Source: Cyclobacterium xiamenense (lineage in GTDB: Bacteria > Bacteroidota > Bacteroidia > Cytophagales > Cyclobacteriaceae). From it: a stretch of DNA of 64,000 nucleotides. Positions 6,054-41,050 of the stretch are shown one piece after another. The notes beneath the pieces are model-generated. The model worked only from the letters and a program-made list of their open reading frames with translations. It ran no database searches and was not told the origin of the DNA. The stretch's first letter is position 1. Every line of letters begins with the position of its first letter. The DNA lies in the NCBI RefSeq assembly GCF_009467825.1, contig NZ_WIOK01000008.1, forward strand, positions 124,001 through 188,000, written 5' to 3'. The position numbers and the translations under genes are program-made.

Positions 6054-6451
6054 TTTCGTTAGGGATTCTTCTCCATAAGACGTTGCCTGCTGCCGTTTTC
6101 ATTGACTTTTTTGCAGTTGCTCGCACCATAAAAGCGACTGTTGATTTTTTGTCGAAAATCCCGCTTATCCTGCTGACTATCAGCTTTTACATTTTTTTCA
6201 CAACTCCTTTGTTGCTATCAAATTATTCTATTTATTACTTAAAGTAATTATATTTTACAATATATGTTTTAGTATATGTAAAACGAATATTACTTATTAT
6301 CAAAAAATAAAATACTTTTTAGATAAAGTAAACGACAAATTACACGGAGTAAAAGTGATGCGGGATGGTTACAGGTACCGATACGGGTTTGCTGCTCAAA
6401 AAAGGCTTGCGATTGGACTGCGGACGCCTGCCAAATGCGAGGTATTTTAAT
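6054..6451. promoter_or_regulatory. AT-rich leader of the giant adhesin gene, with palindromes
   Basis: The spacer holds no gene. From about 6180 to 6340 it is extremely AT-rich and contains a palindrome ATTACTT-A-AAGTAAT at 6234-6248 and a larger inverted repeat TTTTAC...GTAAAA at 6253-6283 with one bulge; the octamer TATTACTT occurs again near 6288. No TAnnTTTG element with good spacing is visible. These features would suit an operator or a curved upstream promoter region; this is inference from composition only. Confidence 0.35.
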
Positions 6452-16141: not shown

Positions 16142-16199
16142 CGGAGGGAACGGGAGACAGGAGTGATGATGCGAGAAGGATGACTTAACAAATGGAACG

Positions 16200-17225
16200 A
16201 TGAAAAAATTACAAACCCTACTGATTTTTCTGCTGAGCTGGAATTTGGTGACGGCTCAGGACATGCAGTATTCCCAGTTTTATGCAGCGCCTTTGTACCT
16301 GAATCCGGCCTTTGCTGGTTCCACGGAATTGACGCGTATTGGTGCCAATTACCGAAACCAATGGCCTGGTCTGGACCATTCCTTTGTATCGTATTCGGCT
16401 TATATCGACCATTACATGTTTGACATCAATTCGGGAGTCGGGCTGATTGTTAATTCTACCCGAGAGAGCCAGTCGAGGCTGAGCACCAACGAAGTGGGCC
16501 TGGCCTATTCCTACAAGCTTCACCTGGGCCTGGATTCTTACCTCCGATTTGGCGGGCAAGCCAGTTTCATCACCCGTGATGCTTATTTTGGCGATTTGAT
16601 TTTTGGGTCGCAGTTAGACATTGACCGGGGATACGTGGACGATTTTAGCGGGGAATTGATGGCGGCCGATTACAAACACAGTTTCGTGGATTATAATTTT
16701 GGCATGCTGTTTCACACCCAAATGATGTGGTTCGGAATTTCCGGACACCATTTATCGGAGCCGAATACCTCCTTTGTGGATGGAAACATCAGCCAATTAC
16801 CCATGAAACTTTCTGCGCACGGAGGTATTAAATTTAGCCTGGGTGAGGGAATGATCAACAATTACTACAGCAACACGCGCCAGGAGCGTTCCGCATTTTT
16901 TGCGTTCAATTACAAGCACCAGGATCCCTTCAACCAATTGGATGTGGGGGCGCAGCTGTTTGTCGAACCCTTGATTCTTGGGGTTTGGTACAGGGGCTTT
17001 CCTGTCAAGTACAACCTGCCAAACAATGAATCCATTGTCGGATTACTGGGCGTGGCGCTGAGTAGTGGAATTGATATCGGATACAGCTTTGATTTTACCG
17101 CATCCAAGCTTAGTTTGGGTAGTTCTGCAGGGGCGCATGAGTTTTCGATACGGTATTCATTTTTATACGGAGATCCCAAAGACCGCAACAAGAAAAGCAC
17201 GATTATCCCCTGTTTCCGGTTCTAG
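16200..17225 (+). CDS. PorP/SprF family type IX secretion membrane protein
   Basis: The 341-residue protein has a signal peptide ending near TAQ and the diagnostic start of the mature PorP/SprF family, QDMQYSQFYAAPLYLNPAFAGS. The rest alternates hydrophobic and polar residues as in an outer-membrane beta-barrel and ends in an aromatic residue (PCFRF). Members of this family are required for secretion or surface attachment of specific substrates carrying type B sorting domains, and their genes usually follow that substrate gene, exactly as here. It is convergent with murA, 6 bases away. Confidence 0.95.
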   Translation: MKKLQTLLIFLLSWNLVTAQDMQYSQFYAAPLYLNPAFAGSTELTRIGANYRNQWPGLDHSFVSYSAYIDHYMFDINSGVGLIVNSTRESQSRLSTNEVGLAYSYKLHLGLDSYLRFGGQASFITRDAYFGDLIFGSQLDIDRGYVDDFSGELMAADYKHSFVDYNFGMLFHTQMMWFGISGHHLSEPNTSFVDGNISQLPMKLSAHGGIKFSLGEGMINNYYSNTRQERSAFFAFNYKHQDPFNQLDVGAQLFVEPLILGVWYRGFPVKYNLPNNESIVGLLGVALSSGIDIGYSFDFTASKLSLGSSAGAHEFSIRYSFLYGDPKDRNKKSTIIPCFRF

Positions 17226-23479: not shown

Positions 23480-24061
23480 ATGGCTCAGGGAAAAGCAATT
23501 ATTTTTTCAGCCCCCTCCGGTTCAGGAAAAACCACCATCGTAAAGCACCTCTTGCAGCATGTCCCCCAATTGGGTTTTTCCATATCTGCCTGTACCCGGG
23601 ACAAACGGGGACGGGACGAAGTCAACGGAAAGGATTATTATTTCCTCTCGCCAGAGGAATTTCGGAAGAAGATCAATCAGGATGCCTTCATCGAATGGGA
23701 AGAAGTATACGAGGGTAACTTTTACGGAACCCTGAAAGAGGAAATTCAGCGCATTTGGGATCAGGGAAAACACGTGATTTTTGATGTGGATGTTAAGGGT
23801 GGGCTGAATCTAAAAAATTATTTTGGGGAAAACGGGTTGGCAATCTTTGTAAAGGTACCGACCATGCAGGATCTCGCCGAACGGCTCCGGGGCCGGGGGA
23901 CGGAATCGGAGGAAAGCCTTTCCCGAAGGATTTACAAAGCCAAATTTGAAATGGGTTTCGAAGACCGGTTTGATGTGACGCTGATCAACAAGGACCTGGA
24001 GGTTTCCTTTCGGGAGGCAGAAAAGCTTGTTAGGGACTTTATAGGAGAAAAGACGGTTTGA
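23480..24061 (+). CDS. gmk: Guanylate kinase
   Basis: The enzyme phosphorylates GMP to GDP using ATP. The 193-residue length is typical. The P-loop SAPSGSGKTT is near residues 10-19, followed by GMP-binding elements (SISACTRDKRGRDEVNGKDYYF, shown in part; EWEEVYEGNFYG) and the lid with RLRGRGTESEESLSRR. The last bases overlap the downstream nadD start by four bases. Confidence 0.97.
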   Translation: MAQGKAIIFSAPSGSGKTTIVKHLLQHVPQLGFSISACTRDKRGRDEVNGKDYYFLSPEEFRKKINQDAFIEWEEVYEGNFYGTLKEEIQRIWDQGKHVIFDVDVKGGLNLKNYFGENGLAIFVKVPTMQDLAERLRGRGTESEESLSRRIYKAKFEMGFEDRFDVTLINKDLEVSFREAEKLVRDFIGEKTV

Positions 24062-24624
24062 AAATAGGATTATTTTTCGGCTCGTTTAACCCTATCCACG
24101 TGGGCCACTTGATCATTGCGGATATCTTGCAGGACCAAACCGATCTGGAGGAAGTTTGGTTTGTGGTCTCCCCACAAAACCCCCACAAATCCAGCCGTTC
24201 CCTACTACACGAATTTGACCGGTTACGGATGGTAGAATTGGCCACCGCCGATCATTTTGGATTCAAGGTGCTGGACGTGGAATTTCACATGCCAAGACCA
24301 AGTTATACCATTGATACCCTGACGTACCTTTCGGAAAAATACCCCCGGCACGATTTTTCCCTCATTGTCGGAGGGGATAATATGACGCACTTTCACCGAT
24401 GGAAAAACAGCGAACAAATTCTGCATCACTACGGGCTGTATGTGTATCCCCGACCGGGCAAAAATAAGGTCATCGAGCACGAGGCGGTGCGCTACGTGGA
24501 GGCCCCTTTGCTGGATATATCGGCTACCTTTATCCGAAAAACCCTACAAAAAGGAGGTTCTGTGAGGTACCTGCTACACCCCCACGTCTTGGATTATATC
24601 AGGGACAAGAAATTCTTCACCTAA
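24058..24624 (+). CDS. nadD: Nicotinate-nucleotide adenylyltransferase
   Basis: The enzyme makes deamido-NAD from nicotinate mononucleotide and ATP. The 188 residues include the nucleotidyltransferase signature GSFNPIHVGHL near the start (HxGH), SPQNPHK, a GGDNMTHFHRW motif and the C-terminal ISATFIRK (ISxTxxR). The start is TTG at 24058, inside the gmk stop region (TTGA overlap); there is no better start downstream before the conserved GLFFGSFNP. It is convergent with the haloperoxidase-like gene, 4 bases away. Confidence 0.95.
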   Translation: MKIGLFFGSFNPIHVGHLIIADILQDQTDLEEVWFVVSPQNPHKSSRSLLHEFDRLRMVELATADHFGFKVLDVEFHMPRPSYTIDTLTYLSEKYPRHDFSLIVGGDNMTHFHRWKNSEQILHHYGLYVYPRPGKNKVIEHEAVRYVEAPLLDISATFIRKTLQKGGSVRYLLHPHVLDYIRDKKFFT

Positions 24625-24628
24625 TTCC

Positions 24629-26014
24629 TTATGGGCGAGTGGCCGTTTCTGCCAAGGAGATTTTCCGGGTACGAATCCGCCCTTCGATCCAGGAGGCAAC
24701 GGCTCTTCCCTGGTCCACCCCGTTGGTGATAGCGGGCAGGTAGTGGATGCCCCCGTAAAAGCGACTGATTGCCGCCTCCTCCGCAGCTTCCCGAAATGAA
24801 TTAAATTCCCGGGTGCCCAATCCGTATTTTACCTCGGTTGAATCCAGAAAATAAAAAGGCTCTCCCAACAATCCCGTAAGGGCTTGTGAAGCTGCTGTGG
24901 AAATCACGCTATGCCCACTGGTATATTCCGGAAAGGGGGGCGTTTGAAGCAGCGGCGTCCATTCCTCATCCATGTACCGGTTGATATACGTCTCCGGTCG
25001 AATCAGCACGCTTCGGTATTTTTCATCCCAGCAGGAAATAAAGGCATCAAACAGGTAGATGGATGCGACGGCCATGGCTTCAGCGGTTTGCCGCCAATTC
25101 AGATTTTTTGCTTTGGATGCGATCCCCGTGATGCCCATCCAGTGGCCCCCAGGTGTAATTTTCTTTTCCGCATACATCACGTGCCCTTTGACGTTCATTT
25201 TATAGGGATTACAATCCCAGAAATAGGCGATTTCTTCCTGGAAGTCGTTCAGCTGGTTGCCCGCATCCATGACCTCTTTCGCATCCTGAAAAAACCGGCT
25301 TTCGGGAAGTGTGTCGAACGGCGGCGGGGGCTCCGGGACAAACTGATTTGCCGAATCCAAAAAAAACGTCCGGATCTTGTTCCAATGCGGCTCAATTCCT
25401 TCCATGTAGGCGGGAGGTGTTGGCCGCCAACTACCCAGGTCGTCGCGAATGGTGTATTTTTCAAAGGACCTGCTCTCATGGTAGTTGTCCTGCGCGGCAT
25501 AGGCCAGGATTTGCTCCGCTACGGATTCACCCAAGTCAACCGCACGGGCAAATTCAGCGGCAGGCATTCCCGCATCTTTTACCCTTTGAAACAGCGCATC
25601 CCGCCGGTCTATTATGTCCTGTTCGGAAAACACCAGTTTGGAGGCGACCCGGTAATAGGCAGTTAGTGCCGCCATCTGGTAATTGATTGGTTGTCCATCC
25701 GTATCCACTGAAATGTCTAGCGGCTCGGACCCATTCAACTGGCCCATTAAGGATACATAGGTATCCGGCTCGGCCAATACCGCCACCTCATACGCAGCAA
25801 TGGCCGGGTAGGTGTAAATACGGCTTGCCACGGGCGGGGAAAATATATCGTGCACCATGACCTCCGTTAACTGCTCGTTGGCATCTACCAAAAAGAAACT
25901 CTCTTGGAGGATTTCTTTGTAGGATTCATCCGGTGTGCAGGCCATCCAGGTAAGCATGCTTGCAAATAGGCTTACCCACAATCCGTTTTGATTTCGTTTT
26001 ACTCGTGCGATCAT
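24629..26014 (-). CDS. Vanadium-haloperoxidase-like PAP2 superfamily lipoprotein (copy 1)
   Basis: The 461-residue protein has an N-terminal signal with Cys26 (WMAC, a loose lipobox) and a C-terminal vanadate/phosphate-binding site of the PAP2/haloperoxidase type: Lys332 and Arg339 in DEKYRSVLIRP, SGH at 366-368 and Arg418...His424 in SRFYGGIH. These line up with Lys353, Arg360, His404, Arg490 and His496 of the Curvularia chloroperoxidase. It is therefore either a vanadium-dependent haloperoxidase or an acid phosphatase of the same fold; the sequence does not settle this. It is exported and probably lies on the cell surface. It is the last gene of a likely operon, 32 bases after a paralogue. 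Confidence 0.88.
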   Translation of the reverse strand: MIARVKRNQNGLWVSLFASMLTWMACTPDESYKEILQESFFLVDANEQLTEVMVHDIFSPPVASRIYTYPAIAAYEVAVLAEPDTYVSLMGQLNGSEPLDISVDTDGQPINYQMAALTAYYRVASKLVFSEQDIIDRRDALFQRVKDAGMPAAEFARAVDLGESVAEQILAYAAQDNYHESRSFEKYTIRDDLGSWRPTPPAYMEGIEPHWNKIRTFFLDSANQFVPEPPPPFDTLPESRFFQDAKEVMDAGNQLNDFQEEIAYFWDCNPYKMNVKGHVMYAEKKITPGGHWMGITGIASKAKNLNWRQTAEAMAVASIYLFDAFISCWDEKYRSVLIRPETYINRYMDEEWTPLLQTPPFPEYTSGHSVISTAASQALTGLLGEPFYFLDSTEVKYGLGTREFNSFREAAEEAAISRFYGGIHYLPAITNGVDQGRAVASWIEGRIRTRKISLAETATRP

Positions 26015-26046
26015 GTCTTCTGAACTAGCCGGTTAAGAAAATGAAT

Positions 26047-27420
26047 TTACTCGTTTATTTGCAAGGCCTGTCGCTGTCCCAGGTGTGCTTCGCGTTTCTG
26101 TAGGATCCATTGGCCCACCTTTCTTCCCTGGTCCTGTCCCCGGGTGATGGCATCCATGAAATGAATGCCTCCATACAATCGGGAAATACTGGCTTCCTCC
26201 GATGCCTGGAGAAACGAACTGAATTCCCGGGTTCCCAATCCATATTTTTCCTCTACGGTATCCACGTAAGAAAATGCATCTCCGAAGAAATGGGTTAGAA
26301 TCACCGCCGAGCTGGTTGAAATCGTGGAATGCCCGCTCAGGTATTCTGGAAACGGAGGCGTTTGCAGCAAGGGCTGGTACGTCGGATTCAGGAGTTTCCG
26401 GATGGCCGTCTCGGGTCGGATGCGGTCGCTTCGATACTTTTCATCCCAACAACTGATAAACCCATCCATCAAACCAAGGGCGACGAAGGTGTTTATTTCC
26501 ATGGATTCGTCAAAAGGCAACCCCGCCTTTTGGCAAGCGATGTCTGCGATACCCATCCAATGGCCACCTGGGGATATCTGCTTGATGCCCACCATCAGGT
26601 GTCCGGTCTCTTCCAGCGCAAAAGGATTGCAATCCCAGAACGCAGCAATTTCCCGCTTTTCCCGGTCTAAATCGAGTTCGTATACCTCTTTCATCAAGGT
26701 ATAAAATTCTGAATCGGGATCCTCGGAAAACGGAACGGGGGGATCCGGCTTAAATTGATCGGCGCTTTCAATCAAAAAGGGACGGATCGTGTTGAAATAC
26801 GGCTCTACCGGAGGAAAGTAACCGGGAGGAGTAGGGTACCATTTCCCTTCCCCTGTACTGGGTTGGTACCGGGGATAATTGCTAATTTCCCGGTATCTAT
26901 CAGCCTTGGCATAATCCAAAATCTGTTGACTAATTTGTTCTCCATATTCCTTTGCCTGAGCGATTTCCTGTGAATCGTACCCCCAACTCCTGCAGGAGTC
27001 GGCAAAAGTTGCCTCAAAGGCGCTTAGTTGCGAGCCGGAAGGTTGCAATGCAGCTGCCGTGTGTACCATGGCAAAAATGGCGCTCATGGGAACAGAAGGA
27101 CTATCTCCTTCCGGCCGGGATAGTGAATCCAGTCCGTTTACCAGCCCGGAAAGAGAGGGATGGGTCTCACTGCCAGACGCAATTACCTCGTATCCGGAGA
27201 GGCAGGCATAGGCGTAAAATCGTGCCGCAAGGGGAGGATTGGTAATGTCGTGGACCATGAGGTCTGTCATTTTTTCCGTCACCCACCCGATGCTTTTGGC
27301 GGGTACCGGGTTTTTTTCTACGGCAGACTGGCAAGAAACCAGGAGTACAGCGAGTGTCCAGCCAAGGAGCTTCCCTGCTTGACGGAAAAGGTTTAGTAGA
27401 GGTGTCCCTGTTGATTTCAT
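26047..27420 (-). CDS. Vanadium-haloperoxidase-like PAP2 superfamily lipoprotein (copy 2)
   Basis: The 457-residue paralogue of the following gene has a clear lipoprotein signal (LLVSC, Cys30) and the same complete anion site: Lys328 and Arg335 in DEKYRSDRIRP, SGH at 362-364 and Arg414...His420 in SRLYGGIH. Shared blocks with its neighbour, such as LLQTPPFPEY, EKYGLGTREF and CWDEKYR, show a tandem duplication with considerable divergence in the N-terminal halves, so the two may differ in substrate. Its start lies 3 bases after the stop of the FG-GAP/UnbV gene, which indicates one transcript. Confidence 0.88.
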   Translation of the reverse strand: MKSTGTPLLNLFRQAGKLLGWTLAVLLVSCQSAVEKNPVPAKSIGWVTEKMTDLMVHDITNPPLAARFYAYACLSGYEVIASGSETHPSLSGLVNGLDSLSRPEGDSPSVPMSAIFAMVHTAAALQPSGSQLSAFEATFADSCRSWGYDSQEIAQAKEYGEQISQQILDYAKADRYREISNYPRYQPSTGEGKWYPTPPGYFPPVEPYFNTIRPFLIESADQFKPDPPVPFSEDPDSEFYTLMKEVYELDLDREKREIAAFWDCNPFALEETGHLMVGIKQISPGGHWMGIADIACQKAGLPFDESMEINTFVALGLMDGFISCWDEKYRSDRIRPETAIRKLLNPTYQPLLQTPPFPEYLSGHSTISTSSAVILTHFFGDAFSYVDTVEEKYGLGTREFSSFLQASEEASISRLYGGIHFMDAITRGQDQGRKVGQWILQKREAHLGQRQALQINE

Positions 27421-27423
27421 GCA

Positions 27424-30400
27424 TTAATAGTTTTCCTGGTTCTGTAGCCGATAGGCGACGAGGCGTTCCCGGTTGATGCCTACATAAAGGACACCGTTCA
27501 GCAATTGCATGCTGCGTACATCCCCTTTGATGTCCAATCCGGAGTTTCTTTGGGGCAGGTAGGAAAAGTTTCCCTGCCCATCTCCCAGCAGTACCGTGCC
27601 GTAATTTGCATCGTATTTACCAAAACGCAATCTGGCCCGTTCAATGTTCCCGCCCAGGATAAAATCCAGGTGACCGTCCCCGTTTAGATCTTCGCCGATG
27701 ACCGAAAAAACGGGCGAAAACTGGGCTTCCGCAGGCAAGGAAGCTTGGCTAAACCCCCCATCTTTCTGATTGATAAACAAGCTGGTTTCCAAAGAGGTTG
27801 CTTTTAGGTAGCCGGCGTCTTCCAATTCCGATTTGGAAAAAATGTTTTCCAGTTTTGCATCGGCGTAGCTGGCGTAATCCGTGAAACGCGTTCGCATACT
27901 GGAGATCTGATCCAGCAACTCGTCCCGGGTCAGGTAGGGGTAGGGTTCGCCTTCTATGTATAAGCTCAGAATTGGATCGATAGCGCCGTTGTCATCAAAA
28001 TCCTTGAAATACATTTCCGCGGGCGCTTCTTTGCTGGCTGTTGCCTGGCTGTTCAGCCCTTGATTGCCCACGAGTAGGTCTGGAAGGCCATCCCCATTTA
28101 CATCGGATACGTGCAGGGTATTCCACCAACCCGATTGCGGTTCGTCAAAGAATGTACCGGTGGAGGGCTGTAGGGTTTCTCCGGTCTGTTCGAAAATCGA
28201 TACGGGCATCCATTCTCCCACAACAATCAACTCCGCCTTCCCATCACCGTTAAGGTCCGCCCAACTTGCATCGGTTACCAGTCCAAGTCTGGAGAATTCC
28301 GGATACCAGTCCTCGGTCTCATCCACCATCCTTCCTCCGCCTTGGTTGATGAGCAGGTAGCTTGGGGGGATTTCCGGATACCTGCCTGGAATCACCCTGC
28401 TCCCAACAAAAAGGTCGGGCAGACCGTCCCCATTGAGATCCTGGGCGGCAACAGCCCCGGTGCTGCTGTGCATTTCCGGGAGTAAATCCGGTGCGCGGGA
28501 GAATGTGCCGGTACCGTCGTTTACGTACAACCGGTCTTGGAGCAAGGGATCCTGGGGCATGAGCGAGCCGTAACCGCCGCTTGCTACATACAAGTCAGGC
28601 CATCCATCCCCGGTAAAGTCCGCCATGAGGGCGTCCGTATCCTGAAATGCTTTGTCTACCTCAAAAGCGTTTGCATTTTGCAGGCGAAAGCTACCGTCCG
28701 CTTGCTGAATGTAGAGTTTCCCTGCCTGTCCGCTTTCACCGCCGATATACAGGTCCAGTTTGCCATCTCCTGTAACGTCGCCGCTGCACAGCACAGGGCC
28801 AGAAAACGACAAAGGATTCACCATTAGAGGTTGCCGTTTAAAATCATTAATGGTGTTTGTGGGAGATCGATGATCAATCGCCGGTGAAACCTCCGCAAAG
28901 AGCGTAGGAGGTATCTTCGTCGCAGGTCTTTTTTTCGTGGCATTTTCTTGTACAAGCGTCAGTGTCTGATTACTTGAAACATCGGTTAGCTTTTCAGAAA
29001 GCCCTCCGGGCCAGGTAACCCAGAGGGAATCAATTTTACCCACGTTGCCCAATCCAAAATGAAGGGTAGGCGATACGCTCGACTGGTACCCGCGACTTGG
29101 CATTTGTTCGATCACCTGGAGTTGATCCTGGTAATAAAGGCTGACTTTTGCACCGATGCCCAGGTTATTTCCCGGCTTTCCCTGTAGCTTTATGCGCAGG
29201 AAGTGCTGATCGCTTTGCAACGAATCCGCGTTGTTTCGGTAGATAAAAGCCGGTTGGTTGATGTTGTTTACGATCAGGTCCAGATCGCCGTCATTATCCA
29301 GGTCGGCATAGGCTGCCCCGTTGCTATTTGCCTGCTGATGGACTCCCCAATCTTCCGATTTTTTTTGAAAAAACAGGCCGTCTTTGTTTTTGAAAATGTA
29401 ATTGGTCAGGTTGGAGGAAGGCATGCTTTGTACCAGTTTGAGGATGTTTTCTCGCCGCAAACCGTTTTGGTTGTTTTTCAGGTAGTCGGCCATGTACTTC
29501 AAAAAATCCTGATTGGTATAGTCCCGAAAATATCCGTTGGTTACGTACAGGTCTTTGTGCCCGTCGTTGTCAAAATCTGCCAGCAAGGCAGCCCAGCTCC
29601 AATCGGTATTGGATACACCTGCCAACTGCCCCACTTCGCTAAACGAGCCGTTTCCATGGTTGAGGTGGAGCATGTTCCGCATGTATTGGTGATGAAAGCC
29701 CACATTGAGGTTGTATTCAAATTTTTCGTAATTGTCCGGAGCCATGAGTAGTTTTTGGCGTCTGTTGTCTTCCGGCAGCATGTCCAGGGTAAAAATATCG
29801 GGGTACCCGTCGTTATTGATGTCGGCAATATCGTTGCCCATGGAAAAATGGGAGGTATGGCCAAGTGCTTCGCCAATAGCATCGGTAAACGTTCCGTCTC
29901 CGTTGTTTAGATAGAGGTAGTCGGGCACCGTGTAGTCATTGCTGATGTAGATGTCCATCCATCCATCGCCGTTCAGGTCTGAAATACCAGCACCCAGGCC
30001 ATAGGAAAGGGCCACCCGCAAAATACCCGCTTCGGCCGTGACTTCCGTAAAGGTATCCCCATCGTTTCTAAAAAGTTGGGGACCTGCCGGGTCCATATTT
30101 TTGAGGATGTCGGCCGTACTGGCTTCGTCCAGTACGGGAAGCGATTTTGGGTTGTGGTTAAGTAGGAAAAGATCCAGATCGCCGTCGTTGTCGTAGTCAA
30201 AGAAGCTGGCCTGAGTGCTGGTGGCCTCGCTGTCTATACCGTAAGCAGCAGCCATTTCCTCAAAGACGGGTATGCCGTCCGAATTGGGTCCCTGGTTGAT
30301 ATACAGTTCGTTTTTCCGCTTTTCCGGGGGCAGACTTCCGGAGTAACAGACATAAATGTCCAGCCAGCCGTCTCCATTTACATCGGCCATGCTAACCCCG

Positions 30401-30762
30401 GTTTTCCAGGGGCCTGGGCGGGTTTGGACCCCTGCGGTTTGCGTAATATCTTCGAATTCCAGGTTCCCTTTGTTCAGGTAAAGCTGGTTTTCAACCATGT
30501 TTCCCGAAAAATACAAATCGTCCAGCCCGTCTCCATTGAGGTCACCGACGGCCACTCCCCCTCCGTTGTAGAAATACTCATACATCAGTATGTTCGTATT
30601 CAATCCTTCAGTGAGTGTATTTTCGAACAGCACCCTGGTTTTTTCCGTAGGCAGATGGGTAAACTGCTTTGTTTGAGGGGCTTTTTCGGTTTCCACCTGG
30701 CAGGATAAAAGAAGCAGGATGCCTGCCAAAACCTGTATTTTACTAAGGAAGTAATTGCACAT
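27424..30762 (-). CDS. FG-GAP/VCBS repeat lipoprotein with ASPIC/UnbV domain (CRTAC1-like)
   Basis: The product is about 1,112 residues from the ATG at 30762, giving a signal peptide with lipobox LLSC (Cys21). A TTG further upstream at 30786 is rejected because a -7 promoter element covers it. Two sets of FG-GAP/VCBS calcium-binding blades carry many DxNxDGxxD loops (DLNGDGLDD, DVNGDGWLD, DFDNDGHKD and others), a beta-propeller arrangement like integrin alpha chains. Between them is an ASPIC/UnbV domain (GIGAKVSLYY, SRGYQSSVSP, HFGLG, WPGG). Such proteins are surface lipoproteins of unknown biochemical role and occur with SusCD pairs. The gene heads the operon that contains both haloperoxidase-like genes. 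Confidence 0.88.
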   Translation of the reverse strand: MCNYFLSKIQVLAGILLLLSCQVETEKAPQTKQFTHLPTEKTRVLFENTLTEGLNTNILMYEYFYNGGGVAVGDLNGDGLDDLYFSGNMVENQLYLNKGNLEFEDITQTAGVQTRPGPWKTGVSMADVNGDGWLDIYVCYSGSLPPEKRKNELYINQGPNSDGIPVFEEMAAAYGIDSEATSTQASFFDYDNDGDLDLFLLNHNPKSLPVLDEASTADILKNMDPAGPQLFRNDGDTFTEVTAEAGILRVALSYGLGAGISDLNGDGWMDIYISNDYTVPDYLYLNNGDGTFTDAIGEALGHTSHFSMGNDIADINNDGYPDIFTLDMLPEDNRRQKLLMAPDNYEKFEYNLNVGFHHQYMRNMLHLNHGNGSFSEVGQLAGVSNTDWSWAALLADFDNDGHKDLYVTNGYFRDYTNQDFLKYMADYLKNNQNGLRRENILKLVQSMPSSNLTNYIFKNKDGLFFQKKSEDWGVHQQANSNGAAYADLDNDGDLDLIVNNINQPAFIYRNNADSLQSDQHFLRIKLQGKPGNNLGIGAKVSLYYQDQLQVIEQMPSRGYQSSVSPTLHFGLGNVGKIDSLWVTWPGGLSEKLTDVSSNQTLTLVQENATKKRPATKIPPTLFAEVSPAIDHRSPTNTINDFKRQPLMVNPLSFSGPVLCSGDVTGDGKLDLYIGGESGQAGKLYIQQADGSFRLQNANAFEVDKAFQDTDALMADFTGDGWPDLYVASGGYGSLMPQDPLLQDRLYVNDGTGTFSRAPDLLPEMHSSTGAVAAQDLNGDGLPDLFVGSRVIPGRYPEIPPSYLLINQGGGRMVDETEDWYPEFSRLGLVTDASWADLNGDGKAELIVVGEWMPVSIFEQTGETLQPSTGTFFDEPQSGWWNTLHVSDVNGDGLPDLLVGNQGLNSQATASKEAPAEMYFKDFDDNGAIDPILSLYIEGEPYPYLTRDELLDQISSMRTRFTDYASYADAKLENIFSKSELEDAGYLKATSLETSLFINQKDGGFSQASLPAEAQFSPVFSVIGEDLNGDGHLDFILGGNIERARLRFGKYDANYGTVLLGDGQGNFSYLPQRNSGLDIKGDVRSMQLLNGVLYVGINRERLVAYRLQNQENY

Positions 30763-30783
30763 AGAAATGAAACGATTTCCCTG

Positions 30784-30791
30784 CAAATATA
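30784..30791 (-). promoter_or_regulatory. -7 promoter element of the UnbV-haloperoxidase operon
   Basis: On the minus strand TATATTTG matches the Bacteroidota -7 consensus and lies 21 bases before the ATG at 30762. No good TTTG is found at the -33 position, so a regulator or a weaker promoter is possible. It sits downstream of the susD terminator, so the operon can be expressed apart from susCD. Confidence 0.5.
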
Positions 30792-30861
30792 GAAATAATT
30801 GTGGAGCTTCCCGGTAATTTGTTCCCTGGATAGGTCGCTGGAAATCACGGGCAAGCGCCGA

Positions 30862-30892
30862 AAGAAAAAAAGGCGATCCGAAGATCGCCTTT
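30862..30892 (-). terminator. Intrinsic terminator of the susC-susD unit
   Basis: On the minus strand AAGGCGATC and GATCGCCTT (30892-30884 and 30879-30871) form a perfect 9-bp stem with a TTCG tetraloop, followed by a T-rich run. It lies 25 bases after the susD stop codon and is a strong terminator. Confidence 0.85.
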
Positions 30893-30917
30893 TATCGTTT
30901 GGGAGCAGCAAAAGCTA

Positions 30918-32786
30918 TTAATTTTCGTAACCCGGATTCTGAATCAGGTTGCCGTTTCGCTGCATTTCATCAAAATTGATGGGCATCCAGTACATTTTAT
31001 CCAACCAGAGACGGTTTTCTTTTCCCGGGTCAATTTCAATGACTTCGTAGGAATAATCATAGAATTCGGGATCATAGCGGTAGAGGGAAAGCTCTTTGCC
31101 CGGCTTAAGGGTTCCGACGATGCTGATTCCATCGGCTTGTCTTCCCAATGTTTCCGGTGCGATCATCCAACGACGTGCATCGTAATACCGTTGCTCCTCG
31201 TGGACCATTTCTACGCGCTTTTCGTTAATGAAGGCATTTAAGAGGTCCTCACCCGACGCGTCGATGGCTGGCAGGCCTGCACGGAAACGAATTTTGTTCA
31301 GCCAGTTTCTGGCTTCCTCGTCGTTGCCAAGCGCAATGTTCGCTTCCACGTAATTAAAGACCACCTCGGTGAAGCGGATATGCGGCCAGGGAATTTCCTG
31401 CCAGGTGTTCTGGTCGACGAAATTCGGATCCGGCTCGATAAATTTCCGCAGGTAATACCCGGTGTAGCTTCCGTTCCAGTCTTCTATAGGGCTGTTTCGG
31501 GTATCCAGACCAAAATGGGTTACTTTTTCTCCTTGGGAATTTACCACTTCGTAGGTACCGGTTTGGATTTGTCCAAGTGGGTCACGGGCCTGATTGGCTG
31601 GAGAACGAGGCTTCCAGGGAGCGCCTTCATACAAGAAGGTGGCGTAGAAGCGGGCCTCCCGATCTTCGTAGGGAGCGCTGGCGTGTTCTTCGTTATCCCA
31701 GTCAAACTCCGTGCCATCCATCATCTGGTAGTCATCGATCAATAGCTGTACGGGCGTGTTTCCGGCCCAGTTGTTGTAGCCATTGGGTCCGTTATGAAGC
31801 CCGTGGCGGCCACCCCATTCCGGCTTTTGAGAGAGGAAGTACCTTCCAAAAATCATCTCGGCTTCCCCGCCGTTTCTGGAGAGGGAGTTGTTCATGTAGG
31901 TTTGGATGGCCTCTTCGTGGGGAAGGGGAGCAGTCAGGTCAAGCATGTTACCACTGGTTTTGTCCAGAACTGCTTTGGCAGCATCCAGGGCTCGCTGGTA
32001 ACGTTCGGTTTGGCTACCGGAGGTGAATCCGATCAGCTCCTTGTTCTGATAACCTGCGATCACGTCCGATTTGGCAGAAGCCGTAGGCATGTCGTGAAGG
32101 TCAGAAGCGGCGTAGATCAATACCCTGGACTTCAGGGCAAGCGCGGCAATCTCATTGGCACGTCCGCGGATGGGGTTGTGGTCGCTCAGCAAATCCGCCG
32201 CACGATCCAAATCCGCCACGATGAAATCCACGACTTCCTGGAAGGTGTTTCGAGGGAGTTCGTAGGTTTCTTCCTCCAGCGTAAAGGGGCGGTCAGCCAA
32301 GGGGACAGCACCGAAGTTCCGAAGCAACTGGTGGTGGAAGTATGCGCGCATAAACGTGGCTTCTCCCAAAAGCCGATCCACGATTCCTCCGGTATTGGGA
32401 AACTGTGGGTCGCTCAGGTTTGCAATCGCTATATTGGTTGCCCGCAAGCTGTTGTACATGTTTGGCCAGTTCCGGGTGGCATCGATCCAGCCTGGATTTT
32501 GCGGGTTGGAACGGGCTTCCGTGACGGTGTTGATATTTCTACCCGGGTGGGTAAAGATGGCTTCGTCTGTCAGTGAAGACAAGGCTTGCTCATTGAATCC
32601 ACCTTGGGCCAGGCCACTGTACAGATCGGTAACGAAGGCCTCTGCAAGCCCTGCATCCCGCCAAACGGCAGATTCAGAAACTTCTCCTAACGGTTGTGTA
32701 TTCAGAAATTCTTCGTCGCAAGAAGTAGTGAACAAAGAAATCGCCAGACCCAACCCTAAATATTTTATATTTTTCATCATATTCAA
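30918..32786 (-). CDS. SusD/RagB family outer-membrane lipoprotein
   Basis: The 622-residue lipoprotein has lipobox TTSC (Cys23) followed by the usual DEEFLNTQP start of mature SusD proteins. The body has the TPR-like helical SusD fold: RAxYHHQLLRNFGAVPL in the first third and the terminal segments ARRWMIAPETLGRQ and LIQNPGYEN. Family members sit on the cell surface and close as a lid over the SusC barrel, binding the nutrient. It starts 11 bases after the SusC gene, forming a pair. The substrate cannot be inferred, since no glycoside hydrolase, sulfatase or peptidase is adjacent. Confidence 0.95.
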   Translation of the reverse strand: MNMMKNIKYLGLGLAISLFTTSCDEEFLNTQPLGEVSESAVWRDAGLAEAFVTDLYSGLAQGGFNEQALSSLTDEAIFTHPGRNINTVTEARSNPQNPGWIDATRNWPNMYNSLRATNIAIANLSDPQFPNTGGIVDRLLGEATFMRAYFHHQLLRNFGAVPLADRPFTLEEETYELPRNTFQEVVDFIVADLDRAADLLSDHNPIRGRANEIAALALKSRVLIYAASDLHDMPTASAKSDVIAGYQNKELIGFTSGSQTERYQRALDAAKAVLDKTSGNMLDLTAPLPHEEAIQTYMNNSLSRNGGEAEMIFGRYFLSQKPEWGGRHGLHNGPNGYNNWAGNTPVQLLIDDYQMMDGTEFDWDNEEHASAPYEDREARFYATFLYEGAPWKPRSPANQARDPLGQIQTGTYEVVNSQGEKVTHFGLDTRNSPIEDWNGSYTGYYLRKFIEPDPNFVDQNTWQEIPWPHIRFTEVVFNYVEANIALGNDEEARNWLNKIRFRAGLPAIDASGEDLLNAFINEKRVEMVHEEQRYYDARRWMIAPETLGRQADGISIVGTLKPGKELSLYRYDPEFYDYSYEVIEIDPGKENRLWLDKMYWMPINFDEMQRNGNLIQNPGYEN

Positions 32787-32797
32787 AGTTTATGGAT

Positions 32798-35700
32798 TTA
32801 GAATGTAACGGATAAGCCCGCGTTAATTACCCTGGCTTGTGGATAGTATTGCCCGGTGGCGCTATCGGATTCTGGGTCGTATACATCCAGCTTATCCCAG
32901 GTGAGTAGGTTTAGCCCGTTGGCATAAAAGCGCAGGTTGCTGATACCAAATCGCTCGCCCACCTGCTGAGGTACGGTATACCCTATCTCCAGGTTCTTTA
33001 AACGGATGTAATCGGAACTTCTGAACCAGAAGTCGTTTCCACTTGAATAGTACTGATCGCTACGGTTGGCAATTCGTGGGTACTCGGCACTTTCGTTATC
33101 GATGGTCCATCGGTTTTCATAGAACTCCAATAGGTAATTACCGATGTTTCCGGATTCGCCCAAACTAACCAAGGCAATGGCTCCGGCAGCTCCCTGAAAC
33201 AGCACAGACATGTCCCAGTTTCGGAAACTGGCATTCATGTTGACACCTCCCTGGAAACGGGGGATGTTGTTTCGGTCCAAACGAACCCGGTCAAGGGGGG
33301 TAATGGCACCGTCTCCATCGTAATCCTTAAAGCGCATGTCACCAGGTCGCAATTGGTTGGTGATATCCGTGTAATCCAGGGTCTCTGCATCGATCGCAGC
33401 CTGATTAGGGAATACGCCGTCATACAGGTAAACCGGGGCAGGGGTATTCATCGGCTTGCCGGTGGATCGTTGCCAGTCAGGTGCTCCCGGAGGCTCGTCC
33501 CAGAATAGGATTTTGTTGTAGGCATAGCCACCGTTGGCACTGACGCTGTACGATAGATCGCCTTTCTGACCACGGTATCCGATATTGAAGTCAAAGCCCT
33601 GGTTTTCTACCTCACCTATGTTTTCCGCAGGAAGCAAGGAGGAAAGTCCACTAGATTGTGGAACAGAGGCATTCTTTCTCCAAAGGATATTGGTTCGCTT
33701 GTTGTAAAAGTAATCCAATTCGAAGAAGATTTTACCCTGAAGCAATTGTCCTTCCACACCAAGGTTAGAGTTGTTGGCCACTTCCCAGGTAATTGCCGTG
33801 TTGGGTACGCGGGTCTCAAACAAGGTTTTCGCTTCGGTATTTTCCAAGATCTGGCTTCGGAAACCGTAAGTGGATAAGAATTGGTATTCCTGAAGGGATC
33901 CACCAAAGAAGATCTGGTCGTTACCCATTTGGCCCCAGGATCCTCTTATTTTGAAGAAGTCCATCACCGGGATGTTGTTTTTCCAGAAACTTTCTTCGGA
34001 AACAACCCATCCGGCCATCACACCAGGGAAGAAACCAAATCGGGTAGGCTCAGGGAAAATGTAGGATCCATCGTATCGCCACAAAAATTCAAAGAGGTAT
34101 TTTTCCTGATAGTTGTAGGCAACCCGGCCGAAATAGTTGAGACGGGCTCTTTCAAAGGCTCCTCCGCCGTTGTCTTTTTCTGCATCACCGCCGGCAAACA
34201 TTTGGTCAATAGCGGGGGAAATAAAGAACCTTCGGTAGGCAAAGAAGTTGTCTCCTCCCACGGTCTCTTGGTTCACACCGGCCAGCGCATTGATTCCGTG
34301 ATCACCAATTTGCTTTTCGTAACTGAAAACACCTCCCAGCAAGATATTCAACTGGTTGATATTGGTCTGCCGTAGACGAGGTTCGGCAGGTCCCCTCTCA
34401 CTGGGAACCAATACGGGCGTAACTCCATCCGCTTCAAAGCCGCTGCCTCTTTGGTACAATATCCAGGGTGTTTCCCATCGTTTGATGAATCGGCTCAGGT
34501 TATCCACGGAGGCCGTACCTTGAAATTTCAAGCCTTCTACTCCCGGGATCTTGATGTTCAATGCTCCGTTTGTCTGGAAGTAGTTGCGCGTATCCCGATC
34601 GTATCCGGTCGCATTGGTGGTGATTACCACGGGGTTTTCACCGTTTTCGATATCTGGTCCGGGTCTGCCGTCAGGCCAGAAAGCTGGCTCATGGGGCTTA
34701 CCTCGCATCTGCATACGGAAAATGGCACCTGCGCCCCGAGTAGGGAAGAAGCGGTATTCCTGACGGGCTAGCACGCCCAGCTGCAAATCCACGTATTCGT
34801 TGATCTTTGCATCCAGGTTGATCCGCATGTCGTACTGCTTGTAACCGGTAGCGGAATTCTTGTAATACGCATCCTGGTTTTGGTAGCCCAAAGAGGCCAT
34901 GTACCGCAAGTTTTCAGAACCACCGTTTAACTGTAGGTTGTGGCGTACTTGTGGAGACCATGTCTTAAGCGTCTCTCCGTACCAGTCGGTGTTGGGATAG
35001 TTCCAGGGATCGGTCCCTGCCCGGTGCAAAGCCAATGCTTCAGGGCTAAAAGGAGCGGTTCGTACCTGACCGTCGGGCCGGGTGTAGCTGCCTGTAGATC
35101 GGTAAGCATCGGTAGCAGACCGCCATTCGTTTACGGGTAATTCGTACACGCTAAGATCATTCAGCATCTCTCCATACTGGGCAGCATCTGCCAGATCGGG
35201 AATAACGGTAGGTTGAGCGAATCCCTGGTTAAACTGGTAGGTCAATTCAGGCTTGCCTTCTTTACCTCGTTTGGTCGTAACCAGGATAACCCCGTTGGCT
35301 GCCCGGGCTCCATAAATGGCAGCAGAGGCATCTTTCAATACCGAAATGGTTTCGATATCGTTGGGGTTTAGTCGCTCGATACCACCTGCTCTGGCTGGTA
35401 TACCGTCGATTACGATCAGGGCATCGTTGTTTCCAAGGGTGTTTGATCCCCGAATTCGAATACCCGAACCATCATAACCCGGTTCGCCGCTGCGGTTTAC
35501 GGCAATTACCCCCGCCATTCGGCCGGCAATGGAGTTGGTCAGGTTCATGGCAGGTGATTTCACCAATTCGGCGCCCTGAACCGTCGCCACTGAGCCCGTG
35601 ATGGTTTCTTTCTTCTGCTCACCGTAGCCCACGACGATCACCTCGCTTAGCGACTGCATGTCGGGGCTAAGGGTGATGTCAATGGTGCTCTGGTTTCCGA

Positions 35701-35974
35701 CCACCACTTCCTGGCTGTCAAACCCAACAAAAGAAAAGACCAGCGTTTCGTCTCCGGATTGTAAGGCTACCCGGTAGTTACCGTCAATATCGGTCACTGC
35801 TCCACGAGTCGTGCCCTTTACCAATACCGAAACCCCCGGCAGGGGAAAATCGTCCTCGGAGGATAAGACCGTACCGGTCACCTCCCTGGACTGCGCATGT
35901 ACTGTCAAGCTGCTTGCTAATAGCAATGCCAAACCCAACAAAAACAGTTTTGTTTTAGGTAAATAGTTTTGCAT
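32798..35974 (-). CDS. SusC/RagA family TonB-linked outer-membrane protein
   Basis: The 1,058-residue receptor has a signal peptide cleaved near HA27-Q28, an N-terminal carboxypeptidase D-like domain (about 30-105, ending in [19 protein letters not shown]), a plug domain with the SusC signatures [10 protein letters not shown] and [26 protein letters not shown], and a 22-strand-type barrel ending INAGLSVTF with an aromatic final residue. It imports the ligand captured by its SusD partner in a TonB-dependent way. There is no extra N-terminal signalling domain, and no sigma/anti-sigma pair is adjacent, so regulation differs from the trans-envelope type. Confidence 0.96.
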   Translation of the reverse strand: [1058 protein letters not shown]

Positions 35975-36551: not shown

Positions 36552-37112
36552 TTAGACCTTCATGATCTCCGCCTCTTTCTTTTCGAAATGCGCATCAATC
36601 TTGGAAGTATAGGTGTCGGTGAATTTTTGAACGGTGTCTTCGGCGCGCTTTACCTCGTCCTCGGAAGCGCCCTCTTTCAGTAGCTTTTTTAGCGCGTCAT
36701 TGGTATCTTTACGGACGGTTCGGATGCTAATTTTACCGTTTTCGCACTCGTTTTTAACCTGCTTCACCAGGTTTTTTCTACGTTCCTCGGTCAGCGGCGG
36801 GATGGTGAGCATAACCATCTCTCCATTATTTTGCGGATTCAGACCTAAGTCAGAGTTGATGATGGCTTTTTCCACCTCCGGAATAAGCGTTTTCTCCCAG
36901 GGCTTGATGGCCAATGTCCGGGCATCTGGAGTGGTAATGGAGGCTACCTGCTGAATGGGAGTAGGGGTACCGTAATAGGCCACCAGTATTCCGTCCAGAA
37001 AATTGGGCATCGCCTTACCCGCCCTGATTTTGACTAGTTCGGCAGCCGTGTGCTGAACAGCTTTTTCCATCAGCGATTTCGCTTCCTCTAAATACATTTG
37101 GATCTCTTCCAT
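36552..37112 (-). CDS. frr: Ribosome recycling factor
   Basis: The 186-residue protein frees ribosomes from mRNA after termination together with EF-G. Family landmarks are VKIRAGKAMPNFLDG (residues about 26-40), the TIPPLTEERRKNLVKQ segment and the terminal three-helix-bundle part with KKLLKEGASEDEVKRAED. Length is normal. It follows pyrH by 6 bases, the common pyrH-frr order. Confidence 0.97.
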   Translation of the reverse strand: MEEIQMYLEEAKSLMEKAVQHTAAELVKIRAGKAMPNFLDGILVAYYGTPTPIQQVASITTPDARTLAIKPWEKTLIPEVEKAIINSDLGLNPQNNGEMVMLTIPPLTEERRKNLVKQVKNECENGKISIRTVRKDTNDALKKLLKEGASEDEVKRAEDTVQKFTDTYTSKIDAHFEKKEAEIMKV

Positions 37113-38434: not shown

Positions 38435-41050
38435 ATGCATTTAACATACAGCCAATTATTTTGCTACCTGGGCGTACTGCTTTGCCTACTTTCATGCAAA
38501 CCTGCCGCGCAAACGCTGCAGGGAGAAGCGCCTCGGCCGGAACCTGTACTGGCGGAAACCGCCCCGGAAAAGCGAGCGAATCTACACCTGCAACGGATCC
38601 GGGAAAAGGAGCAGGCCCTGCAGGGCTACAAGGCCAGTGCAACCCGTACCTTTGACCTGGTACACACGGACCTTTGGTTGGCTTTCGATTATGCCAAAAA
38701 AGCAGTGATGGGGGAAGCGCTCCTGACAGTGACTCCCTATTTTTATGAGCAGAATACATTGGTAGTGGATGCGGTGGACTTTGAAGTTCACGAAGCCGTC
38801 CTACAGGAGGGGGTGGAGCAAATCCCGCTTGCCTTTACCTACGATCAGCAAGCGCTGACACTGGTGCTGCCTAGAACGTTTAGCAAGGGGGACACGCTTC
38901 AGGTAGGGATTCGCTATACCGCTTTTCCTGAAAAGGGTAGCTCGGAAAGTAGTGCAGCATTTACGGATACTAAGGGCCTTTATTTTATAAATGCCGATTC
39001 GACCGATTCGGATAAGCCGGTTCAAATTTGGACCCAGGGAGAAACGGAATTTACCTCCAAATGGTACCCAACAATCGATCATCCCAACGAGCGACAAACC
39101 CATGATTTTCACCTTCGGGTACCGGAAGGCTACCGTAGCCTTAGCAATGGAAAACTATTGGGTAGCCTGTCCCATGGTGACGGCACCCGAACGGATCACT
39201 GGCGCATGGATATGCCCCATGCTCCCTACCTTTCCGCGGTAGTAGTTGGTGATTTTGCGGCCGTTGATGGAGGTACGGTGGATGGAATTCCCCTACGTTA
39301 TTTTGTAGAGCCGAAATACCAGGCGGGGGCCAAAAAAGTATTTGCCCATACCGGAGAGATGATGCGATTTTTTTCGGATCTCCTGGACCTACCCTTTCCC
39401 TGGCAAAAATACGATCAGGTAGTGGTTCGGGATTTTGTCTCCGGGGCCATGGAAAACACCACCTTGTCGGTATTCATGGAAGCATTGCAACTCAACGAGC
39501 GGGAAGCCCTGGATAGCGAATGGGATTACATCATCGCACACGAGTTGTTTCATCAGTGGTTTGGCAATTACGTGACGACGGAGTCCTGGGCCAACCTTAC
39601 CCTAAACGAGGCCTTTGCCGACTACTCCGAATACCTGTGGATAGCGCACAAAGAGGGAACTGATCCTGCGGACATGCACCATTTTAATGCCGTGGAGCAA
39701 TACCTGGATGAGGCCGAGGAGAAACAGGAGCCGCTGATTCGTTACCAGTACGAAGACAGTGAGGACCTGTTTGACAGCCACACCTACGCGAAAGGCGGGC
39801 GGGTATTACACATGCTGAGAAGGTATCTGGGCGACGAGGCTTTTTTTCAGGGCTTGCACCGGTACCTCATAGAGAATGCGCTGGGTAGTGTGGAGGTACA
39901 CCAGTTGCGGTTGGCTTTTGAGGCGGTATCCGGAATGGATTTGCAGTGGTTTTTTGATCAATGGTTTCTTTCCCCCGGCCATCCCGAGTTAGCGATACAC
40001 TGGGATTATTCGGAGGAAGACAACGTGTTGCTAACCCTTGAGCAGCATCAGGATTTAGAGAAAACGCCCCTTTACAAGGTGCCGTTCACCGTTACCTTAT
40101 ACAAGGAGGGCGAACGCATCGAAAGAGAATTTGTGCTGGATCGGGCCTACCAGCAATTTGCACTGGAAAACGGCCCGGGTACGGATCTGATTCTCTTTGA
40201 CGAGCGGCAGGTACTATTGGCAGAAAAAGCGCAATATAGAGGTAGGAAACTTTTGGAAAAGCAATTTGTCTACGCCCAGTCCGGCCTGTCCAGGGTAGAA
40301 GCGTTGGATAGCCTTACCTCAGACGCGCGCAATGGGGAGGATACGCGGTCCTTGCTTCAATCGGCCCTTTCGGATTCGTTTTGGGTGGTACGTGAGCTTG
40401 CCCTTCACCGAATGCTTCGCAGCGAGTCCGATTGGGAACCAGTGCTTTCCTTGGAAAATGCGATTTTGGATCTGGCAGAAAACGATCCGAACAATGCCGT
40501 AAGGTCCGTAGCCCTGGAGGTATTGGCAGGGGTTGATCCCGTAAAATTCCAGCCTCTGTTTTATCGCCTAATCAACGATTCATCCTACCAGGTGGCCGGA
40601 GCAGCGCTAAGGGCATTTATGGACCTGGAAGGCGAGGCAGCCAGTAAAAAAGAATTATTTGAGCGGTTGCGGGAGGAGGAAAACATACGGATGATTGCCC
40701 CGTTGGCGGATTACCTTACCGAGAGTGCCGAGGTGGAGGGGGCTGCCTGGATGCATGATAAGCTTCGGCTTCTTACTGGTGAGTCACTCTATTATTTTAT
40801 AGGGTATTACGGGGATTACTTTGCAAGTCGGTTGGATGTGGACGCAACAGAAGCGATAGCACGGCTGGTAGCCTTGGGGCGGGAGCATCCGCAGAATTAT
40901 GTGAGATTGGCGGCATTCCAGTCGCTCTTCGGATTTATCGACGAAGAAAGCGTGCTAAAACAAGCCAAATCCTTGTTTGCGGGAGAGGAGGATGAAATGG
41001 TGCGCCGCTACCAGGAATATTACCTGGAACCGTATCTGAATGGGGAGTAA
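38435..41050 (+). CDS. M1 family metallo-aminopeptidase, lipoprotein
   Basis: The 871-residue protein has a lipoprotein signal (CLLSC, Cys21). The M1 zinc site is complete: exopeptidase motif GAMEN at 337-341, HELFH at 369-373 and the third zinc ligand Glu392 in NEAF. After the catalytic and thermolysin-like domains come HEAT-like helical repeats (from about residue 640) as in other large M1 enzymes. It probably trims N-terminal residues from peptides on the outer face of a membrane or in the periplasm. The gene is monocistronic with its own terminator. Confidence 0.94.
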   Translation: MHLTYSQLFCYLGVLLCLLSCKPAAQTLQGEAPRPEPVLAETAPEKRANLHLQRIREKEQALQGYKASATRTFDLVHTDLWLAFDYAKKAVMGEALLTVTPYFYEQNTLVVDAVDFEVHEAVLQEGVEQIPLAFTYDQQALTLVLPRTFSKGDTLQVGIRYTAFPEKGSSESSAAFTDTKGLYFINADSTDSDKPVQIWTQGETEFTSKWYPTIDHPNERQTHDFHLRVPEGYRSLSNGKLLGSLSHGDGTRTDHWRMDMPHAPYLSAVVVGDFAAVDGGTVDGIPLRYFVEPKYQAGAKKVFAHTGEMMRFFSDLLDLPFPWQKYDQVVVRDFVSGAMENTTLSVFMEALQLNEREALDSEWDYIIAHELFHQWFGNYVTTESWANLTLNEAFADYSEYLWIAHKEGTDPADMHHFNAVEQYLDEAEEKQEPLIRYQYEDSEDLFDSHTYAKGGRVLHMLRRYLGDEAFFQGLHRYLIENALGSVEVHQLRLAFEAVSGMDLQWFFDQWFLSPGHPELAIHWDYSEEDNVLLTLEQHQDLEKTPLYKVPFTVTLYKEGERIEREFVLDRAYQQFALENGPGTDLILFDERQVLLAEKAQYRGRKLLEKQFVYAQSGLSRVEALDSLTSDARNGEDTRSLLQSALSDSFWVVRELALHRMLRSESDWEPVLSLENAILDLAENDPNNAVRSVALEVLAGVDPVKFQPLFYRLINDSSYQVAGAALRAFMDLEGEAASKKELFERLREEENIRMIAPLADYLTESAEVEGAAWMHDKLRLLTGESLYYFIGYYGDYFASRLDVDATEAIARLVALGREHPQNYVRLAAFQSLFGFIDEESVLKQAKSLFAGEEDEMVRRYQEYYLEPYLNGE

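Follow-up and report, generated by a model that had tools for sequence, protein, structure and literature searches.

What is an importer of the SusC–SusD type doing beside genes whose only enzymes are haloperoxidases? The question is posed by five co-directional genes of Cyclobacterium xiamenense (genome of 5.78 Mb in 97 contigs), which lie in a stretch of 64,000 nucleotides of contig NZ_WIOK01000008.1 (positions 124,001 to 188,000), here called the window. All on the minus strand, they occupy the interval from frr/pyrH to nadD/gmk, as judged from the list of open reading frames (ORFs) and profile searches, and encode a SusC transporter, a SusD lipoprotein, a lipoprotein with FG-GAP repeats and an UnbV domain (hereafter UnbV) and two vanadium-haloperoxidase (VHPO)-type lipoproteins, VHPO2 and VHPO1 (Table 1). 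The coordinates and the five identities given in the initial annotation were correct, as was its remark that the locus has no glycoside hydrolase (GH), sulfatase, lyase or peptidase: between frr and nadD, the ORF list holds on the minus strand only SusC, SusD, UnbV and the two PAP2 proteins, hence no carbohydrate-active enzyme, and no regulator gene was seen there. The answer that we favour, and regard as evenly poised between right and wrong, is that the locus encodes enzymes that oxidise halides at the cell surface together with an importer of their own. Taken separately, the coupling of the enzymes to UnbV and SusCD is well supported by the comparison of genomes.

Both enzymes are PAP2-superfamily lipoproteins and fall in the vanadium-iodoperoxidase group known from Zobellia. 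The iodoperoxidase of solved structure from that genus, Zg-VIPO1 (PDB 4cit), is matched by VHPO1 with an E-value of 3.7e-133 and about 50% identity. A fold search made with the predicted model of VHPO1 only (mean predicted local distance difference test score, pLDDT, 83.3) returned 4usz (1.3e-32) and 4cit (3.8e-32) at 49–50% identity, then NapH3 and chloroperoxidases (3e-11 to 1e-8) and acid phosphatases from 1.2e-3; by this measure, the VHPO1 fold is nearer to the vanadium iodoperoxidases (VIPO) than to the acid phosphatases. For the active site, 193 sequences were aligned: 177 VIPO-like ones, scoring above 500 bits, and 16 distant ones, from overlapping sets that were not deduplicated. All 177 VIPO-like sequences have K332, R339, S366, G367, H368 and R418, and 176 have H424, the remaining one showing a gap there. 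These seven residues of the vanadate site (Lys, Arg, Ser-Gly-His, Arg, His) are all present in VHPO1 and VHPO2, in agreement with the complete haloperoxidase site initially ascribed to both lipoproteins. Around the site, VHPO1 shares Y271, W329, D330, F361 and T365 with Zg-VIPO1, from which VHPO2 differs by Phe271 and Leu365. The acid-phosphatase signature SRxxxxxHxxxD has an Asp four residues past the catalytic His; this position is Ala in VHPO1, VHPO2 and 171 of the 177 VIPO-like sequences and Asp in 4 of the 16 distant relatives, so that by this residue both window enzymes fall outside the PAP2 acid phosphatases. Kinship with the Zobellia iodoperoxidase thus favours halide oxidation over dephosphorylation, and halide oxidation at the surface is likely for VHPO1 and VHPO2. 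The initial annotation had allowed for a substrate that is halogenated, oxidised or dephosphorylated: the iodoperoxidase family argues for the halide-oxidising part of this proposal, and the Ala at the signature position argues against the last part.

The third lipoprotein has both a PF07593 domain and an FG-GAP propeller, as in ASPIC/UnbV (CRTAC1-type) proteins; the propeller is of the calcium-loop type by profile match (PF13517), as had been noticed from the sequence at the outset. Its AlphaFold2 model (mean pLDDT 88.2) finds murine CRTAC1 as the best PDB match (9etn, E 3.2e-28, template-modelling (TM) score 0.72 by target length), although the superposition is loose overall (root-mean-square deviation 11.1, TM score 0.37 by query length). 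The window protein thus resembles CRTAC1 in having the UnbV domain after the propeller and differs from it in being a bacterial lipoprotein of about twice the length. All six UnbV genes of the genome lie at most two ORFs from a SusCD pair and two of the six accompany a VHPO; UnbV is thus a frequent partner of SusCD and not confined to haloperoxidases. Another locus of this genome (L194, 1691–15537, near 57 kb of contig C92) comprises SusC–SusD, an opposite-strand ORF, UnbV, a pyridoxal-phosphate-dependent enzyme, an amidohydrolase and a GFO/IDH oxidoreductase, and is thus another SusCD–UnbV locus that does not look devoted to glycans.

The association of UnbV with VHPO genes was assessed in three sets: relatives (59 genomes including that of the window, 36 of them with VHPO1 matches; the places listed were covered by 79 regions, of which 76 contained a total of 87 VHPO ORFs of 380 aa or more), named loci (the best 80 of at least 585 confirmed ones, a scope that applies to all named counts below) and Flavobacteriaceae (20 regions from 18 genomes that we chose, a match being present in 128 of 299 genomes). 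A few genomes occur in both the named and the relatives' sets, and all counts are inflated by relatedness. In the relatives, UnbV stands directly upstream of 33 of the 71 VIPO-like genes, or of 46 if intervening genes of our VHPO, KojH, c41 and lipo200 families are skipped, against a chance expectation of about 0.0008 per gene (305 UnbV matches in 297.7 Mb); the figure for distant VHPO genes is 2/15. It is directly upstream of 34 of the 77 scored VHPO genes of the named loci (46 with skipping) and of a VHPO in 14 of the 20 Flavobacteriaceae regions. Across genomes, UnbV is found in 36/36 with a VHPO versus 13/23 without (Fisher p 1.8e-5), and in 25/25 versus 13/23 once same-genus copies are removed (p 1.7e-4). 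Note that a conserved lipoprotein of about 200 aa stands between the UnbV genes of VHPO cassettes (L121, L122, L126, L128 and others; 26 of the 80 named loci); the one member scanned (L157, 211–813) has no Pfam match.

The SusC–SusD pair recurs as well. The order SusC–SusD–UnbV–VHPO–VHPO is found in 11 same-genus genomes (L035–L044 and L067, fragmented in the last) and in Pleomorphovibrio (L116), and a common fuller order is SusC–SusD–UnbV–lipoprotein–UnbV–UnbV–VHPO. First counts of same-strand runs with SusC or SusD (20/67, 13/59 and 3/20) had made SusCD an optional minority partner, a view that was overturned: most UnbV-bearing named loci are cut by the 10-kb flank, which ended inside a same-strand run in 34/49 named, 9/36 relatives' and 1/14 Flavobacteriaceae UnbV-bearing loci. 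We extended upstream 22 of these 34 named loci, six of the nine relatives' loci (L045, L047, L049, L062, L080 and L082) together with L048, and one Flavobacteriaceae locus, and SusC–SusD was found in 21 of the 22 extended named loci. Altogether, SusC–SusD heads the run in 34/37 resolved named loci, 24/33 resolved relatives' loci and 4/14 UnbV-bearing Flavobacteriaceae regions, the resolved counts leaving out 12 named and three relatives' UnbV-bearing loci. The neighbourhood survey that the initial annotation had called for thus bears out the recurrence of the gene set in other genera. What often interrupts the run in Flavobacteriaceae is a sodium symporter gene in inverted orientation, with xylose-isomerase and xylulokinase-type genes beside it, and SusC–SusD lies beyond the symporter in both such loci that were extended (L202 with L251, L203 with L252). 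In Croceitalea, the locus of a 75% homologue has three UnbV genes and the VHPO, and the adjoining upstream stretch carries SusC–SusD–UnbV (L190, L248). The presence of SusC–SusD in the extended loci moved our estimate for an importer-coupled system from slightly below even to even, and that for a defence role, considered below, from unlikely to more unlikely still.

Within the window, SusC and SusD are adjacent (gap of 11 bp), as in SusCD utilisation loci, and gaps of 3 bp and 32 bp separate UnbV from VHPO2 and VHPO2 from VHPO1; the gap from SusD to the UnbV ATG is 155 bp. It is this ATG that gives 1,112 aa, the ORF-list start of UnbV being a TTG inside an element that resembles the Bacteroidota -7 consensus. 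The gap also contains a terminator-like stem-loop. In 15/15 loci examined, SusD is followed by a stem-loop whose tail is rich in T and whose stem sequence differs between loci (by a loose rule and with no shuffled control), and TATATTTG precedes the UnbV start in 10 of the 15. The exact -33/-7 pattern has no site in the locus; sigma-70-type sites are at chance level (11 found versus 11.3 expected), and terminator-like sites over the whole region are not clearly enriched (19 versus 15.5). SusCD and UnbV–VHPO2–VHPO1 look like two transcription units. The single locus of the initial annotation stands as a co-directional gene set; the terminator and the -7-like element would divide it into two units of transcription, and the two descents described below into two modules.

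Table 1. Features of the locus and its surroundings (window coordinates)
Feature	Position	Strand	Support or remark
SusC/RagA TonB-dependent outer-membrane transporter, 1058 aa	32798..35974	-	TIGR04056 883.8 bits (cut-off 368.25), TIGR04057, PF07715
SusD/RagB lipoprotein, 622 aa from ORF-list TTG start	30918..32786	-	PF07980 3.3e-50, PF14322 7.5e-20
Intrinsic terminator-like stem-loop after SusD	30868..30893	-	11 pairs, T-rich tail
-7-like element TATATTTG before UnbV start	30784..30791	-	
UnbV/ASPIC FG-GAP lipoprotein, 1112 aa from ATG 30762	27424..30762	-	PF07593 80.4 bits (cut-off 23.4), PF13517 273.6 bits
VHPO2, vanadium-haloperoxidase-type lipoprotein, 457 aa	26047..27420	-	PF01569 31.7 bits (cut-off 27.2); seven site residues
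VHPO1, vanadium-haloperoxidase-type lipoprotein, 461 aa	24629..26014	-	Zg-VIPO1 4cit match; PF01569 above cut-off
nadD	24058-24624	-	Flank of the five-gene set
frr	36552-37112		Flank of the five-gene set
M1 peptidase	38435-41050		Beyond frr and pyrH, outside the locus

Elsewhere in the window (6365–17225) there is an SprB–SprF-type pair, in which a PorP/SprF protein comes after an SprB-repeat protein of 3,258 aa that bears a CHU_C type IX secretion domain.

The two enzymes, which share 39% identity, have separate histories. In a tree of 50 rows that we picked from 172, the enzymes that group with VHPO2 are those of L083, L088, L075 and L079 (the last two being SusC–SusD–UnbV–VHPO loci with a single enzyme); VHPO1 falls with those of Algoriphagus, Belliella and Anditalea. 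Forcing the two into a sister grouping was rejected (approximately unbiased (AU) test, p 6e-34), so that the word tandem, used of them initially, is apt for their position and not for a duplication. The place of VHPO1 beside nadD/gmk is that of the enzymes of L117, L120, L123, L127 and L128. In a quick tree, the window UnbV groups with those of L075, L079, L088 and L096, and its orthology with the VHPO-adjacent UnbV of Algoriphagus and kin was rejected (AU p 1.3e-69); compared by eye, this tree mirrors the main VHPO groupings. SusC, SusD, UnbV and VHPO2 are kept together in several genera. Judged from these groupings, the locus is made of two modules of different descent, SusC–SusD–UnbV–VHPO2 upstream of an older VHPO1 cassette beside nadD/gmk, the former sitting where related genera have SusC–SusD–UnbV–lipoprotein–UnbV–UnbV. 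Different PAP2 branches are paired with the same kind of surface set: in L096, a distant PAP2 protein (355.6 bits) comes after the UnbV type of the window, and on contig C50 of the window genome (L069, 303–12737) SusC–SusD–UnbV is followed by a DsbH/DUF255 protein and then by a VHPO from another branch, of chloroperoxidase type (domains DUF6851, VCPO_2nd and PAP2; PF22778, PF21167). A third VIPO-like enzyme, conserved in the genus, is encoded on contig C26 (L068, 4483–10661) without UnbV, behind a ROK gene, a gene for a 780-aa protein (weak PIG-L match below the Pfam cut-off) and another ROK gene.

As to what might be imported, the initial annotation had suggested an aromatic, a phospho-compound or a quorum signal, for which we found no support; related loci adjoin alpha-glucoside genes instead. 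The neighbours of VHPO genes in other Bacteroidota include kojibiose hydrolase (NF053734, L132), GH37 trehalase, a sucrose-type major facilitator superfamily protein, an amylosucrase-like GH13, GlpF/GlpK and ROK kinases. According to our cluster models, at least one disaccharide gene is present in 29/80 named, 8/76 relatives' and 1/20 Flavobacteriaceae loci; the members scanned under the labels KojH65, GlpK and GH13_treC are sometimes of other kinds, the ‘GlpK’ of L202 being xylulokinase-type beside a xylose isomerase and the ‘KojH65’ of L251 a GH65 of phosphorylase type. In the relatives, a VHPO is no more than 220 bp away from four of the nine kojibiose hydrolases above cut-off and from three of the 15 strong GH37 trehalases. 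Upstream, a LacI-type gene is found near SusC in 9 of 33 stretches examined, GH31 alpha-glucosidases in 4/4 stretches scanned (L235–L237, L239) and an alpha-amylase in 2/2 (L222, L223), once with SusE/SusF; starch or maltose genes near VHPO cassettes may be separate systems. We did not adopt glucoside uptake as the function of the window locus itself, given that the best kojibiose-hydrolase match of its genome scores 190.4 bits (cut-off 800) and its sole trehalase match 20.5 bits (21.1 with neighbours; cut-off 21).

If the locus does couple halide oxidation at the surface to import, then the enzymes would depend on vanadate and, working on the outside of the cell, would react hydrogen peroxide from the environment with iodide, or perhaps bromide. 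The resulting hypohalous acid would arise close to an organic ligand bound by the propeller and SusD. Iodination, oxidation or opening would follow, either of this ligand or of the matrix or cell that carries it, and SusCD would take in a small product that may be a glucoside-type compound. Several observations weigh against this scheme. The terminator and the -7-like element would allow separate expression of SusCD and the enzymes. Nine of the 33 resolved relatives' UnbV–VHPO loci have no SusCD in the run, among them that of a near relative (G029; L045, L220), which has UnbV–VHPO–VHPO with no SusCD in the 18 kb examined upstream. The same holds for 10 of the 14 UnbV-bearing Flavobacteriaceae regions, including that of a 99% match to Zg-VIPO1 (L200, L250), where the VHPO follows three UnbV genes and SusC–SusD lies about 11 kb upstream with other genes between. 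In the relatives, 25 of the 71 VIPO-like genes, the third enzyme of the genus among them, have no adjoining UnbV. Finally, we identified in the window locus neither a source of hydrogen peroxide nor a dehalogenase or halide carrier, and the genus has no alpha-glucoside genes in it. Note that a protein with HD and Pycsar-effector-type transmembrane domains is encoded near the Zg-VIPO1-like locus (L200, 194–1444).

The best-surviving alternative, which we nevertheless consider unlikely, is a peroxide defence or weapon: the VHPOs would consume the hydrogen peroxide of algae or competitors with iodide, or make hypoiodous acid, and import by SusCD would be unrelated and under its own regulation. 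Two transcription units and UnbV–VHPO loci devoid of SusCD speak for it, and vIPO3 of Zobellia is reported to be up on Ascophyllum versus alginate, in a passage about how algal defences are dealt with (PMC9296495). However, most resolved UnbV–VHPO loci are headed by SusC–SusD, SusC, SusD, UnbV and VHPO2 stay together in several genera, and the same genome has a second SusCD–UnbV set with a different VHPO branch. Quite improbable in our view is iodine acquisition, in which surface-made hypoiodous acid would be the form taken up or fixed. Lacibacter, whose habitat is non-marine, also has a homologue with UnbV nearby (L181), and SusCD should be unnecessary for a small ion; the calcium-loop propeller would fit such a role. 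So would what is reported of Arenibacter C-21, for which the idea was proposed: this strain depends on glucose, oxygen and calcium to accumulate iodine, and five or more of its PAP2 proteins are homologues of the Zobellia enzyme (PMC5064120). Surface phosphatases that split organic phosphates so that phosphate or an alcohol can be imported are likewise improbable; the PAP2 fold and site, the GlpF/GlpK/GlpD genes adjoining some related cassettes and the dephosphorylation by apo-chloroperoxidase announced in the title of PDB 3bb0 speak for them, but acid phosphatases are far weaker fold matches of the VHPO1 model (E around 1e-3 versus 1e-32), the signature Asp is replaced and the nearest solved relative is titled an iodoperoxidase. 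Chance neighbourhood with no functional link is strongly disfavoured: separate transcription units and loci lacking one or other partner would agree with it, but adjacency and co-occurrence are far above chance and SusCD recurs at the head of the loci.

A bolder extension of the importer-coupled system, which we regard as a long shot, is that it serves across the phylum to feed on living phototrophs. Hydrogen peroxide from algae or cyanobacteria and iodide or bromide from seawater would give hypohalous acid, and the neighbours would leak glucoside-type compatible solutes (glucosylglycerol, trehalose, sucrose). Taken up by SusCD, these would feed the alpha-glucoside enzymes (kojibiose hydrolase, trehalase, GH31, GH65) and glycerol genes that many genera carry next to the cassette. 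In Cyclobacterium, which has no sugar genes linked to the locus, only oxidation and import would have been retained.

How does the locus compare with known systems? It resembles Zg-VIPO1 (4cit, 4usz) in enzyme sequence, vanadate-site residues and, for VHPO1, fold; its SusC–SusD pair is adjacent and not at a distance as beside the 99% match. Like polysaccharide utilization loci (PULs, utilisomes), it has a SusC–SusD pair followed by lipoprotein genes, but its enzymes are haloperoxidases only and its lipoprotein set has a -7-like element of its own. Arenibacter C-21 is likewise a marine member of the Bacteroidota; it is reported to have homologues of the Zobellia enzyme and to take up iodine in a manner that depends on oxygen and calcium (PMC5064120). 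Our literature search found nothing joining haloperoxidase with UnbV, FG-GAP, CRTAC1 or VCBS repeat; in the portions of text retrieved, haloperoxidase and SusD were mentioned only apart (SusC as a text term also catches ‘susceptible’), and haloperoxidase and polysaccharide utilization loci were not linked where both were named. As far as genome comparison can tell, the locus is a real, conserved arrangement of known parts, the combination of which we did not find in print in this search.

To our knowledge, the bacterial iodoperoxidase of solved structure has no assigned physiological partners. The SusC–SusD–UnbV partners, the second, chloroperoxidase-type set and the nearby alpha-glucoside genes provide a concrete, testable list of partners for iodoperoxidases. 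Should the link prove functional, uptake by SusCD would follow not only hydrolysis but also oxidative or halogenating processing at the surface, with consequences for iodine cycling and for the life of Bacteroidota on phototrophs.

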